A DNA stretch of 25,856 nt from the IMG/VR virus record IMGVR_UViG_3300033182_001262, positions 1-25,856 of that record. One strand, given 5' to 3'. Source of the DNA: a virus. Position numbers and translations under genes: made by a program. Of the stretch, positions 13,992 through 18,703 are shown in pieces; position 1 is the stretch's first letter; every line of letters starts with the position of its first letter. Below the pieces are notes generated by a model. That model had not been told where the DNA came from. It did no database searches and worked only from the letters and a program-made list of their open reading frames with translations.

Positions 13992-14729
13992 ATGACAGCT
14001 ACAAATGACCTAATCAAAGAAATAGAACTTCGCCTTGGCGGACAAATGGTAGACGTAGAGCTTGATCCTGAGCACTACGATCTTTGTGTTCGCAAGGCAT
14101 TGGAAAAGTATCGCCAACGTGCAGAAAACAGTGTCGAAGAAGCATTTGTGTTTTTAGACATTGTGGAAGAAGTAAGCGAGTATATACTGCCTAAAGATAT
14201 CATCGAAGTGCGTGATATCTATCAAAGGACCAGTGGTACCAATCAAAGTACAGGAAACGATATTGAACCATTTGAAGCAGCATACTTGAACACCTATTTG
14301 TTAGCAGGTGGTAGAGCAGGTGGTTTAGCAACATTTGATGCGCTACAGCAGCACAGAGAAACACTGGGCAGATTGTTTGGTTCAGAAATACTTTTTACTT
14401 GGAACGAACGTAACAAAAAACTCACACTGCACAGAAAAGTCAAAGCCAACAACAGTGTGGTACTGCATGTTTACAAAGAAGTAGGACAAGATGCACTACT
14501 AGAAGATGTATATGCAGGACCATGGCTAAAAGAATATGCACTGCAACAAGCCAAACTAATTCTAGCAGAAGCACGTGGCAAGTTTACACAGATTGCTGGG
14601 CCACAGGGCGGCACTACATTGAACAGTGATGCATTGAGAGTTGATGCACAGACTGCATTGGAAAAACTAGAACAAGATCTAAAAACCTATGCAGAAGGCT
14701 CAGCAGGCTTTGGCATCATTATTGGCTAA
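13992..14729 (+). CDS. gp13: Neck protein gp13-like (245 aa)
   Basis: Matches my recollection of cyanophage gp13. Landmarks are IEIELRLG-type N-terminal helix (LIKEIELRLGGQMVDVELD), ALEKYRQRAENSVEEAFVFL, EYILPKDIIEVRDIYQR, EPFEAAYLNTYLLAGG, GRLFGSEILFTWNERNKKLT, AGPWLKEYALQQAKLILAEA, RGKFTQIAGPQGGTTLNSDA and a C-terminal GFGIIIG. In T4, gp13 binds the portal vertex after packaging and, with gp14, forms the neck for tail docking. Length is somewhat below T4 gp13 (309), as usual for marine relatives. It sits directly upstream of gp18, not next to gp14, which is on the other strand. There is no Shine-Dalgarno; see the overlapping late promoter. Confidence 0.88.
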   Translation: MTATNDLIKEIELRLGGQMVDVELDPEHYDLCVRKALEKYRQRAENSVEEAFVFLDIVEEVSEYILPKDIIEVRDIYQRTSGTNQSTGNDIEPFEAAYLNTYLLAGGRAGGLATFDALQQHRETLGRLFGSEILFTWNERNKKLTLHRKVKANNSVVLHVYKEVGQDALLEDVYAGPWLKEYALQQAKLILAEARGKFTQIAGPQGGTTLNSDALRVDAQTALEKLEQDLKTYAEGSAGFGIIIG

Positions 14730-14769
14730 TCATTATATACCCACATAACTGTAAATTAGGCGGTTTTAG

Positions 14770-14817
14770 CCCTTTCTCCCATAAATACATTTAGAAGATA
14801 CCTAACTAGAGAAAGGG
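14770..14817 (+). promoter_or_regulatory. Inverted repeat able to hide the gp18 Shine-Dalgarno
   Basis: CCCTTTCTC (14770-14778) is the exact complement of GAGAAAGGG (14809-14817), which contains the gp18 Shine-Dalgarno. The late promoter lies between the arms, so only read-through RNA carries both arms. Confidence 0.55.
14780..14787 (+). promoter_or_regulatory. Late promoter element for gp18 (CATAAATA)
   Basis: CATAAATA, the form common in cyanophage late promoters (NATAAATA), 36 nt before the gp18 ATG. Predicted start near 14793 gives a 31-nt leader carrying AAAGGGA. Confidence 0.75.
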
Positions 14818-14823
14818 AATAAA

Positions 14824-17277
14824 ATGGCTACACTAACATCACCAGGTGTATCGGTTACCATCTCAGACGAAAGCGCATACGCTTCTCCGGGTGCAGGCAC
14901 AGTACCTCTGATTATCCTTGCAACAGCAAACGATAAAACAGATCCAACTGGTGCAGCATCAGACGGAATTGCAGCAAGCACCAAGTCTTCGGCAGCCAAT
15001 GTACCAGTACTGGTTACTTCACAAAGAGAACTATCACAAAAATTTGGTAATGTCTCTTTTGCATCTACAGCAGGTGCAGAAACAAGCGAATACGGTCTAC
15101 TAGCAGCATACAGCTTCCTAGGACAAGGCGGTAGCGCATACATTCAACGTGCAGATATTGACCTATCGGCTCTAACTGCAACAACAACAGAACCAACTGC
15201 GGCATACAGCACAGCGGCAAGCATGTGGCTGGATACAAATGCCAGCAAGTATGGTATTCATCAATACGACGACAGCACAGGACTATGGAACAACGTAGAA
15301 CCAACTGTAGAAGTAAACCTTGATGCAACTGCTAATGAGGCAGGCGGCGACAACTATACACCAAGTGCCACAGTTGTTGACGGCGACTTCCTGGTTGTTG
15401 TACACGGCGATCAAGATGGTGATCTATCACTTGAATATTTCTACGGTGTAAGCAGTGCATGGGAAGTACTAGACAGTGACGCAGCATTGAGCTCAGGCGA
15501 AACTGTAACATATGCACCACACTACAGCCTACCAAGTTCACCAGGCGATGACGATATTTGGATCAAAACAACAAGACCTGCAAATGGTATTGATCTAAAG
15601 ATCTATACATTCAGCAACAGCAAGTTCAACTTGCAAACTGTTGTAGGTGTTACAAGTGCACTAACAGCTGGCAAATCAACTGCAATTGGCGACTTCCGCA
15701 AGCAAGACGGTACAAGCACAACTGCACTAACAGCTAGCGATGTAAGCGAAAATCAACTGCTACTTGACTTGGAAGTGAACACAAAAGCTGTAATCACTAT
15801 TCAGCAAGTTGACGGTGATGATGCACCAGAAAATCTAAGTGCATACACAAGCAAACTAGCACAAAACGACACGCCAACTGCAACAGCAGCAAACGGCACA
15901 TACTGGCATGATAGCACAGTAAACAGTCTAGACCTATACAAAGCAACATCAAGTGGTTGGGAAGCTGTAACTGCAACGTATTCAAGCAGTGAGCCAACAT
16001 CACCAAGCGACGGCGATGTTTGGGTTGACACAACTGGTGCAACAGGTGCTAACGAACGTGCATATCCAGCAATTTATGTGTATAACAACACATTGACTGA
16101 TTGGGTCAAGCACAGCAACACAGACCAAACCACAGAACGTGGTGTTCTATTTGCTGATATCACTGACACAGCAAGCGATAATACAAACGGTGGTTATGCA
16201 ACAGTAATCACAAATGGTCCAAGTCACACTGTTTATCCAACGGGTATGATGGCTGTGAACATGGGTCAAAGTAAAAACACTGTAAGATCGTACAACACCA
16301 CAGCAAGTGCATGGCGCAACGCAGCAGCTAACCACGCAGATGGTTCAGGTGCATTTGGACGTCTAGCACAGCGTAAAGTTGTTGCAAGCAAATTGCAAGC
16401 GGCAGCAGCAGCCAGTGAACTACTAGAAGAAACAATTGACTTCAAACTTATTGCAGCACCAGGTTATCCTGAACTAGCTGACGAAATGTACACAATCAGC
16501 AACAACAGAAACAACACAGCGTTTGTTATTGTTGACTCACCACTTCGTAAAACAGTAGCAGAAGCAATTACTTGGGTAAATGGTACAAGTGCAGATGAAA
16601 ACGGTGAAGACGGTCTAAACACCAAAAACACATATGCTGCAACATACTATCCAGCATTGAAAGCAACTAACCCAACTGACGGTAAAACAGTTGTTACATA
16701 TGCATCACACAGTGTACTATATCAGTATGCATACAACGACTCAATCAGCTACGAATGGTTTGCACCAGCTGGTCTAAACAGAGGTGTTGTAACAAATGCT
16801 AGCGGTGTAGGTTACATTGATGACGAAGGCGAGTTCAAAGCATTGAGTCTAAACAGCGGCGACAGAGATAAACTGTATGCAGCTAAACTAAACCCAATTG
16901 CAAACTTCCCAGGTACAGGCATTGTTCTATATGGACAAAAATCACTGCATGCAACAACAACTGCACTTGATCGTGTAAACGTTGCAAGATTGGTTGCACA
17001 CCTACGTGGACGCTTTGATGAGATTGCTCGTCCGTTCTTGTTTGAACAAAACGATCAATTGACACGTGACAGAGCAAGATTGGTATTCAATCGCTTCCTA
17101 GAAAACATTGCTAGCCAGCGTGGTATTACTGACTTTGCAGTTGTGTGTGATGAGTCAAACAACACACCAGCACGTATTGATGCAAACGAACTGTACATTG
17201 ATATCGCAATTGCTCCAACCAAGAGCATTGAGTTTATCTACATTCCAGTGCGTATTGTAGCAACAGGCACACTGTAA
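14824..17277 (+). CDS. gp18: Tail sheath protein gp18-like (817 aa)
   Basis: The N-terminus (MATLTSPGVSVTISDESAYA) and the C-terminal third identify a contractile sheath subunit: AAPGYPELADEM, NNTAFVIVDSPLRKTVAEAI, then YFNP-type WFAPAGLNRGVV, GTGIVLYGQKSLHATTTALD, RVNVARLVAHLRGRF, and LVFNRFLENIASQRGITDF through IEFIYIPVRIVATGTL. gp18 polymerises around the tube and contracts during injection. It is longer than T4 gp18 (659). Extra length falls in the protruding region, about residues 122-420, which holds four degenerate GDxWxxT-type beta modules with tryptophans at 135, 246, 361 and 400. The start has GGGA 5 nt upstream. A late promoter precedes it and a terminator follows, so gp18 is a largely self-contained high-output unit. 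Confidence 0.93.
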   Translation: MATLTSPGVSVTISDESAYASPGAGTVPLIILATANDKTDPTGAASDGIAASTKSSAANVPVLVTSQRELSQKFGNVSFASTAGAETSEYGLLAAYSFLGQGGSAYIQRADIDLSALTATTTEPTAAYSTAASMWLDTNASKYGIHQYDDSTGLWNNVEPTVEVNLDATANEAGGDNYTPSATVVDGDFLVVVHGDQDGDLSLEYFYGVSSAWEVLDSDAALSSGETVTYAPHYSLPSSPGDDDIWIKTTRPANGIDLKIYTFSNSKFNLQTVVGVTSALTAGKSTAIGDFRKQDGTSTTALTASDVSENQLLLDLEVNTKAVITIQQVDGDDAPENLSAYTSKLAQNDTPTATAANGTYWHDSTVNSLDLYKATSSGWEAVTATYSSSEPTSPSDGDVWVDTTGATGANERAYPAIYVYNNTLTDWVKHSNTDQTTERGVLFADITDTASDNTNGGYATVITNGPSHTVYPTGMMAVNMGQSKNTVRSYNTTASAWRNAAANHADGSGAFGRLAQRKVVASKLQAAAAASELLEETIDFKLIAAPGYPELADEMYTISNNRNNTAFVIVDSPLRKTVAEAITWVNGTSADENGEDGLNTKNTYAATYYPALKATNPTDGKTVVTYASHSVLYQYAYNDSISYEWFAPAGLNRGVVTNASGVGYIDDEGEFKALSLNSGDRDKLYAAKLNPIANFPGTGIVLYGQKSLHATTTALDRVNVARLVAHLRGRFDEIARPFLFEQNDQLTRDRARLVFNRFLENIASQRGITDFAVVCDESNNTPARIDANELYIDIAIAPTKSIEFIYIPVRIVATGTL

Positions 17278-17408: not shown

Positions 17409-18020
17409 ATGGGACTTAACAATTTTGGCGTGCCACTAAACGGTGCAACGGATACAACTGTAATGCCTAAGCTACAGTATCGTTTCCGTGTAACGTTTTC
17501 AGGGTTTGGTTCAAATACTGGAGGTATTTCCGAAGCAACACTAACACGCAACGTAATTACTGCAACTCGTCCTGCACTATCGCACGATGAGATCACACTA
17601 GACGTTTACAACTCACGCATCTATATGGCTGGCAAGCACACACTTGATCCAGTAACAATTGTACTACGTGACGATGTAAACAGTGAAACAATTAGAAATG
17701 TGAACCAACAGGTTCAAAAACAAATCGAACTAAACGATCAAGTTACAGCAGGCGCAGCAGCTGACTACAAGTTCACAACAAAAATTGACATGCTAAATGG
17801 TAGCCACGGTGGCGACAATAGCATTGTCATTGACAGTTATGAACTGTATGGTTGCTATCTACAGAACGTACAGTACGGTGACCTAAGCTATGCAGCAAGC
17901 GAACAAGTACAAGCTACATTGTCAATACGCTATGACAACTTCGATCACTTCTCATCGGGACAAACTACGTTTGAAGGCACAGGTGAAAACACTGAAGTAG
18001 CAACAAACGGCCCGGCGTAA
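17409..18020 (+). CDS. gp19: Tail tube protein gp19-like (203 aa)
   Basis: ATG 8 nt after AAGGGAG. Contains the tube-subunit layout PKLQYRFRVTFSGFG, RPALSHDEITLDVYNSRIYM followed by AGKHTLDPVTIVLRDDV, a helix around SETIRNVNQQVQKQIELND, and the C-terminal strands YELYGCYLQNVQYGDLSYA and VQATLSIRYDNFDHF. Hexameric rings of this protein stack to form the inner tail tube through which DNA passes. Slightly longer than T4 gp19 (163), normal for marine relatives. It lies between gp18 and a second gp19-like gene, in one transcription unit with its own late promoter. Confidence 0.92.
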   Translation: MGLNNFGVPLNGATDTTVMPKLQYRFRVTFSGFGSNTGGISEATLTRNVITATRPALSHDEITLDVYNSRIYMAGKHTLDPVTIVLRDDVNSETIRNVNQQVQKQIELNDQVTAGAAADYKFTTKIDMLNGSHGGDNSIVIDSYELYGCYLQNVQYGDLSYAASEQVQATLSIRYDNFDHFSSGQTTFEGTGENTEVATNGPA

Positions 18021-18037: not shown

Positions 18038-18703
18038 ATGGGGATCAGGAATTATGCAATTGATTACTACTCTACTTCGACAGCTAGTGTAAAACTCCCT
18101 AAGCTGAAGTTCGCTCACGCAGTTCAGTTCATGGTTGATCCTGATATCCCATTGCTACAAGACCTTTACAGAGCAACACAAGGTTACACATTTGATGTAA
18201 CCAGTGTTACACTGCCTACTGTGACATACAACACAAACACAGTAAACAGTTACAACAAAAAGCATATATATCACACAAACAAGTCATATGCACCAGTTCA
18301 AATTACACTGCGTGATACAAGAGATAGTGCATTGAACGTTGGTCTTGCAGCATATGATCGTGTGTTTTTCAACAGTGCAGGACCTGACAGACCTACAGCA
18401 AGAAATGTATTGGGCTTTGGCAACACCGCAGAAGGCCTCAAACTAAACGATTCAAAAGATCCAATTCAACAGATCAATATCTTTACCTATCATCCAAATA
18501 AACAAAAAGTAGCTGATCAGTACAAGTTGATTAGGCCTATTGTTACCAACATTGCCAGAGACACTGTTTCATATGCAGATAGCAGTCCGATAGAAATCAG
18601 CATCACAGTTGAATATGAATACTATGATTATTCATTGGTAACTGATGCTCCGATACCAAGCACTATACAAAACGATAGATCAAGTGTACTAGGTCCTAAC
18701 TAA
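18038..18703 (+). CDS. Second tail-tube-like protein, gp19 paralogue (221 aa)
   Basis: The layout parallels gp19: KLPKLKFAHAVQFMVDPD at the first strand, FDVTSVTLPTVTYNTNTVNS, YNKKHIYHTNKSYAPVQITL then RDTRD (compare AGKHTLDPVTIVLRDDV), a helical stretch, PIQQINIFTYHPN, and the closing strand PIEISITVEYEYYDYS. Sequence identity to gp19 is low by eye. It could be a tube variant, a tube-terminator or initiator ring (T4 gp3 and gp54 are tube-associated), or a tail-tip protein. It follows gp19 after 17 nt with only a weak AGGT upstream and overlaps gp4 by TAATG. Virion location is well supported; the exact ring position is not. Confidence 0.75.
   Translation: MGIRNYAIDYYSTSTASVKLPKLKFAHAVQFMVDPDIPLLQDLYRATQGYTFDVTSVTLPTVTYNTNTVNSYNKKHIYHTNKSYAPVQITLRDTRDSALNVGLAAYDRVFFNSAGPDRPTARNVLGFGNTAEGLKLNDSKDPIQQINIFTYHPNKQKVADQYKLIRPIVTNIARDTVSYADSSPIEISITVEYEYYDYSLVTDAPIPSTIQNDRSSVLGPN

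Follow-up and report, generated by a model that had tools for sequence, protein, structure and literature searches.

The window, by which we mean the whole 25,856-base virus fragment analysed here, carries a gp18 tail sheath gene preceded by a 94-base gap. The genes and predicted elements at this junction are the following.

13992 to 14729, + strand: head-tail adaptor Ad2 gene (PHROG 211), co-directional with gp18 and upstream of it, the nearest source of read-through.
14759 to 14778, + strand: upstream arm, the left strand of the predicted helix, with runs at 14759-14761 and 14763-14768 and the core CCCTTTCTC at 14770-14778 (from the fold and duplex statistics).
14780 to 14787, + strand: late-type promoter CATAAATA between the arms, recognised by its motif; a TAAATA core stands at a like place in relatives.
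14809 to 14829, + strand: right strand of the predicted helix, with the Shine-Dalgarno GAGAAAGGG at 14809-14817, a run at 14820-14825 that includes the A and U of the AUG, and a run at 14827-14829 (from the fold).
14824 to 17277, + strand: gp18 tail sheath gene, the putatively regulated gene (PHROG 10581, E 6e-178), with its ATG at 14824.

The first-pass annotation had described two complementary 9-nt arms, the right one carrying the Shine-Dalgarno of gp18, and a late promoter between them. Every coordinate of the arms proved correct, and the promoter was confirmed at its place. The Shine-Dalgarno ends six bases ahead of the gp18 ATG. The Ad2 stop codon occupies 14727-14729 and 30 nt separate its end from the helix, so ribosomes terminating there should not melt the stem. 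We take the late start of gp18 to be at about 14793, by the offset usual in T4; the promoter motif lies 3’ of the left arm, so that late RNA with this assumed start would lack that arm. Farther downstream, two adjoining genes (17409-18020 and 18038-18703) each match PHROG 4542, a tail tube family, and form a tandem tube-like pair.

When positions 14740-14860 are folded, the 9-bp stem grows to 18 bp in three runs (14759-14829), a predicted helix that pairs the Shine-Dalgarno together with the A and U of the gp18 AUG. The MFE of this fold, -27.3, was equalled by 5 of 200 shuffles, and the stem is still present when 381 nt of context are folded. Plain RNAduplex scores against shuffles gave a first signal and were then set aside, because they mix local pairs with long loop chains; we preferred the opening cost, defined as the energy needed to open 12 nt over the Shine-Dalgarno. 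The predicted cost of opening the ribosome site is 11.8-14.4 kcal/mol in read-through RNA of four lengths, versus 1.4-3.2 kcal/mol in five versions of the late RNA starting at 14788-14796, and on average 14809-14817 is unpaired with a probability of 0.00 in the former and 0.31-0.72 in the latter. Gene e of T4, run as a positive control, gave 13.6 versus 2.7 kcal/mol, with none of 100 shuffles as good, and in the same test the T4 gp18 leader (2.3 versus 2.8 kcal/mol) was predicted to have no switch. By predicted opening cost, and with gene e as control, the folding comparison that the first-pass annotation had proposed thus came out as it expected, with read-through RNA closed and late-start RNA open.

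Could a purine-rich Shine-Dalgarno simply face a pyrimidine run upstream of a promoter by chance, in one phage? Perfect 9-bp runs by themselves are not unusual: 147 of 2000 shuffles of the left-hand 60 nt contained one, and with about 20-25 genes in the window some multiple testing is involved. Nevertheless, few sequences matched the energy of the whole duplex (17 of 5000 shuffles; 5 of 2580 stretches of 60 nt from the record), and none of 150 shuffles of the left part with dinucleotides kept matched the opening cost of the window. Together with the excess among relatives described below, these figures make chance an unlikely explanation. It is also conceivable that the hairpin acts in RNA processing or in RNA stability, through RNase III cutting for instance, or in attenuation, rather than blocking initiation. 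A 9-bp core with a 30-nt loop may well be cuttable by a double-strand RNase, but the helix ends on the Shine-Dalgarno and AUG in successive lineages, and no terminator-like site was found on the + strand, the strand of gp18, between 14000 and 15500; we consider this reading highly improbable.

A DNA search with the window leader found no match in the phage collection. Two loci (L001 and L002) are near-identical to the window and their arms are invariant, so that the window's own pair is without covariation. Among diverged leaders, the nearest two that were tested, L482 and L520 (63% gp18 identity), show no switch: 48 and 13 of 60 shuffles, respectively, did as well, a result that favours the chance reading. 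L484 (62% gp18 identity) has a strong but different arm pair just before the promoter (3.6 versus 10.9 kcal/mol, 0 of 60 shuffles), and L486 and L487 (54-56% gp18 identity) are borderline in the opening-cost test. The expectation that the arms would be conserved or would covary in relatives therefore stands in part: the layout recurs and L484 carries a different working pair, but L482 and L520 are without arms and those of the window do not vary.

The late-promoter motif itself is a regular feature of these leaders. A TAAATA core lies 28-85 nt upstream of the gp18 ATG in 222 of 235 leaders, versus about 32 in shuffles; within the window, ATAAATA alone showed no enrichment (7 copies, with 4.3 expected). 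In the RaK2-like phages, and by eye in L019 and L103, the promoter sequence doubles as part of the left arm, so that a transcript from that promoter can hardly carry the arm. Other conserved elements were seen in this region. A double pyrimidine element (like CCTTTT..CCCTTTTT), often following ATTTACC, stands about 60-95 nt before gp18 in L015, L022, L160, L166, L188, L212 and others; it is possibly a terminator tail or a weak anti-Shine-Dalgarno, and the clade that carries it is large and mostly fails the switch test. A conserved palindrome, CCTATATAGG, precedes the gp18 promoter in L228, L234, L243, L249, L261 and others, at about 85-100 nt from the gene, and the L028 family has CCTTCGAAGG at a similar position; neither of these palindrome families shows the switch.

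For a wider survey, gp18 loci were collected from scans of viral contigs down to 26% identity; 59 loci in which the gp18 start pattern was not found and 11 with too little upstream sequence were dropped. Clustering that left end gaps free lumped together 87 of the 135 leaders, and a stricter procedure that gave 58 leader families took its place. After exclusion of the three families without a promoter, 16 of 55 reached p<=0.05. Merging all sets gave 114 gp18 leader clusters, of which 26 did so where 5.7 were expected (binomial 7e-11 against 5%), a count that takes one arbitrary member per cluster, leaves aside 13 of 177 entries without a promoter and draws its p-values from differing shuffle numbers (150, 100, 60 and 40). 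Other late-promoter genes of these loci served as controls: of 114 (117 minus three gp18-like rows), 10 reached the threshold (Fisher 0.003 versus gp18), and a difference of at least 6 kcal/mol was found in 19 of 114 gp18 clusters versus 5 of 114 control genes (Fisher 0.002). The control genes are themselves slightly above 5%, and some of their matches, in the tube genes of the L009, L016 and L007 phages, resemble the same device. This excess at gp18 argues against chance pairing in a single phage. At the 0.05 threshold 88 of the 114 gp18 clusters fail, and on a gp18 tree the switch label (25 of 67 rows) needs 18 changes, versus 20.5 with shuffled labels, which suggests either that the switch is quickly gained and lost or that many calls at that threshold are false.

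It is the layout, not the letters, that recurs. The arms are largely unrelated in sequence between lineages, as in AAACCTTTCAA/TTGAAAGGTTT (L009), TCTGTCTCTTTTTT/AAAGGAGAGACAGA (L004), GGGTA-CTCCA/TGGAG-TACCC (L016) and ATAACCCC/GGGGTTAT (Atu_ph07). When each leader's cognate left arm was set against 63 foreign ones, the cognate arm came first for 10 of 64 leaders and ranked within the top 5% for 19 of 64 (3.2 expected), the 64 including four RaK2-like rows that are not independent. The window ranks seventh in this test; six of the 63 foreign left arms pair as well as its own, a further point for the chance reading. Within lineages, several substitutions keep the pairing: a C-G pair in L347 and L349 is U-A in L362 and L363 of the L004 clade, an A-U pair is reversed to U-A between 121Q and XbC2, and C-to-U changes facing Shine-Dalgarno G's leave G-U pairs, which are pairs in RNA only, in 121Q, GAP32, CBB and the L020 clade. 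At a site where 121Q, GAP32 and CBB keep G-U, Kaldavass and XbC2 have a mismatch. These compensating changes are examples chosen by eye and fall short of a full covariation test; arms cannot be aligned across lineages, and the RaK2-like leaders have diverged too little for much covariation to be expected. Some members of the L004 and L020 clades fail the switch test. In L020, L026, L052, L142 and their kin, a local hairpin, AGATTTaggagAAATCT, stands just before the gp18 ATG and, in late RNA, places the Shine-Dalgarno in its loop; the upstream left arm can pair with the hairpin stretch, giving two competing folds.

The comparison of arms also bears on a DNA-level explanation, in which the inverted repeat is bound by an activator or repressor protein, or the left arm acts as an upstream element of the promoter, and the pairing in RNA is incidental. 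That the arms flank or overlap the promoter would suit such an element, as would the good conservation of the RaK2-like letters just before AATAAATA. It is harder to reconcile with arms that differ among lineages, with a right arm that always lies on the Shine-Dalgarno, and with repeat imperfections of which several, by eye, are the G-U pairs noted above, good in RNA only (the one mismatch in Kaldavass and XbC2 apart). In RaK2, moreover, the gp18 leader (ATCCTCCA/TGGAGGAT) and the tube leader (ATTTCTCCA/TGGAGAAAT) have different arms; both left arms precede AATAAATA and each fits its own Shine-Dalgarno, which indicates that the left arm is matched to the ribosome site of the gene it precedes. 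We regard the DNA-level explanation as the least probable of those considered.

Among cultured relatives, run beside T4, 16 of 18 gp18 leaders were positive at p<=0.05, which again speaks against chance. The positive phages are 121Q, Hallingskeid, Kae01, Munch, BF, CBB, GAP32, Kaldavass, XbC2, Muenster, RaK2, XaC1, PA5oct, Phosso, Atu_ph07 and XacN1, of which 12 are RaK2-like close kin that amount to few independent cases, and the Munch leader is identical to that of Kae01. The gp18 leaders of Vibrio phage 2.275.O and SCTP-2 fail the opening-cost test. The 18 were taken from 60 cultured records, and those left out were mostly near-copies but also K64-1, RCIP0023, 7t3 and CM1/RAS14.

The device does not appear to be confined to the sheath gene. 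Against about 5% expected, 23 of 141 late-promoter genes pass in four jumbo contigs, 6 of 59 in RaK2 and 12 of 65 in 121Q; the starts of genes beyond gp18 are ORF calls made in this analysis. Ten passing proteins were compared with PHROGs, and those that could be named include a neck Ad2 protein, an Rz-like spanin, a tail fibre, a nuclease and several virion proteins. The window's other late-promoter genes tested (the gene starting at 2018, and the tube and minus-strand leaders in the near-identical L001) show no switch. A PHROG 8113 gene (L453:879-1436 in RaK2; from 15278 in L465 of 121Q) is among the strongest predicted switches in both genomes, going from 2.6 to 18.2 kcal/mol in RaK2 and from 2.5 to 13.6 kcal/mol in 121Q, and its arms differ between the two phages.

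The same helix might serve another purpose, namely to uncouple the dose of gp18 from upstream genes, late ones included, rather than to silence early RNA. The window's upstream neighbour, Ad2, is a virion gene, so the read-through RNA may well be late RNA itself, and in RaK2 and 121Q the device is found in a minority of the late-promoter genes, both of which agree with a role in dose. However, in the RaK2-like phages and PA5oct (L426, L427, L430, L431, L433-L439 and L441) the gene before gp18 carries the annotation dNMP kinase; in Hallingskeid a tiny ORF separates the two genes. This kinase is likely to be expressed before the late genes, in which case RNA reading on into gp18 would be a genuine hazard in these phages; this argues against the dose explanation. 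We hold that explanation to be rather unlikely, although the helix would also block RNA arriving from late promoters farther upstream, and the gain could be one of timing or of dose. In PA5oct, a Hef-like homing endonuclease gene (L441, 4103-5719) lies between the sheath and tube genes.

Precedent for a switch of this kind is clearest in T4, as the first-pass annotation had pointed out for gene e and a few other genes, in agreement with the review PMC3014915. There the structure of gene e is described as demonstrated, with a 100-fold effect, and the cases named are e, soc, 49 and homing endonuclease genes including I-TevI. As is predicted here, a long RNA started upstream buries the Shine-Dalgarno or AUG of e, soc, 49 and I-TevI in a helix, the late promoter lies inside or adjoins the left arm, and late RNA is without that arm (PMC3014915). 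The effect predicted for gene e is of the same size as that for gp18 of the window, and the predicted gene e helix also includes promoter letters. Unlike the T4 cases, the regulated gene here encodes the tail sheath, a major structural protein, and the switch is known by prediction; the arms of the window are also unrelated in sequence to those of gene e. Similarly, in the T4-related Aeromonas phage Aeh1, RNA structure at the initiation region of mobE lowers translation initiation, but mobE is a homing endonuclease gene (both as named in PMC3014915). For CBB and GAP32, an ATAAATA late-type promoter motif ahead of structural genes has been reported, with a gp55-like sigma factor in CBB; unlike our analysis, the accessible part of PMC5259590 describes the motif only, and the term ‘secondary structure’ is absent from it. 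Our literature search, to which subscription journals were mostly closed, turned up no sheath gene with a structure of this kind, and none in these phages.

These comparisons lead us to favour the reading, with a probability of about 0.72, that the modelled gp18 leader is a cis-acting, transcript-dependent translation switch of the T4 gene e kind. It is probably a real switch, newly seen at a sheath gene, and recurrent across T4-like jumbo phages. RNA arriving from upstream would carry the left arm, which would pair with the Shine-Dalgarno as well as part of the AUG and may thereby keep 30S subunits off, whereas RNA from the putative late promoter between the arms would be without the left arm and would be translated. 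If RNA does read through into gp18 as we suppose, the protein would then be made mainly from its own late promoter. Sheath protein can polymerise by itself, and a possible benefit is that none would be present before tube and baseplate exist. That read-through RNA is closed and late-promoter RNA open is upheld by the folding, the gene e control, the 114-cluster statistics and the recurrence with unrelated arms; the nearest diverged relatives, L482 and L520, which lack the arms, weigh on the other side.

It is tempting to speculate, though we do so tentatively and at somewhat less than even odds, that self-silencing late leaders form a whole class in T4-like jumbo phages, serving the sheath gene together with some of the neck, tube, spanin, fibre and other virion genes. 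The late promoter of each would come with a private anti-Shine-Dalgarno arm, sometimes the promoter itself, repeatedly gained and lost with unrelated sequences, and translation would be bound to the genes' own promoters genome-wide. If the switch is real, logic of gene e strength at the sheath gene of sources as distant from one another as RaK2, 121Q, Atu_ph07, Phosso and the window would be a recurrent means of tying a major virion protein to its late promoter, and the abundance of late-gene RNA in such phages need not imply its translation.
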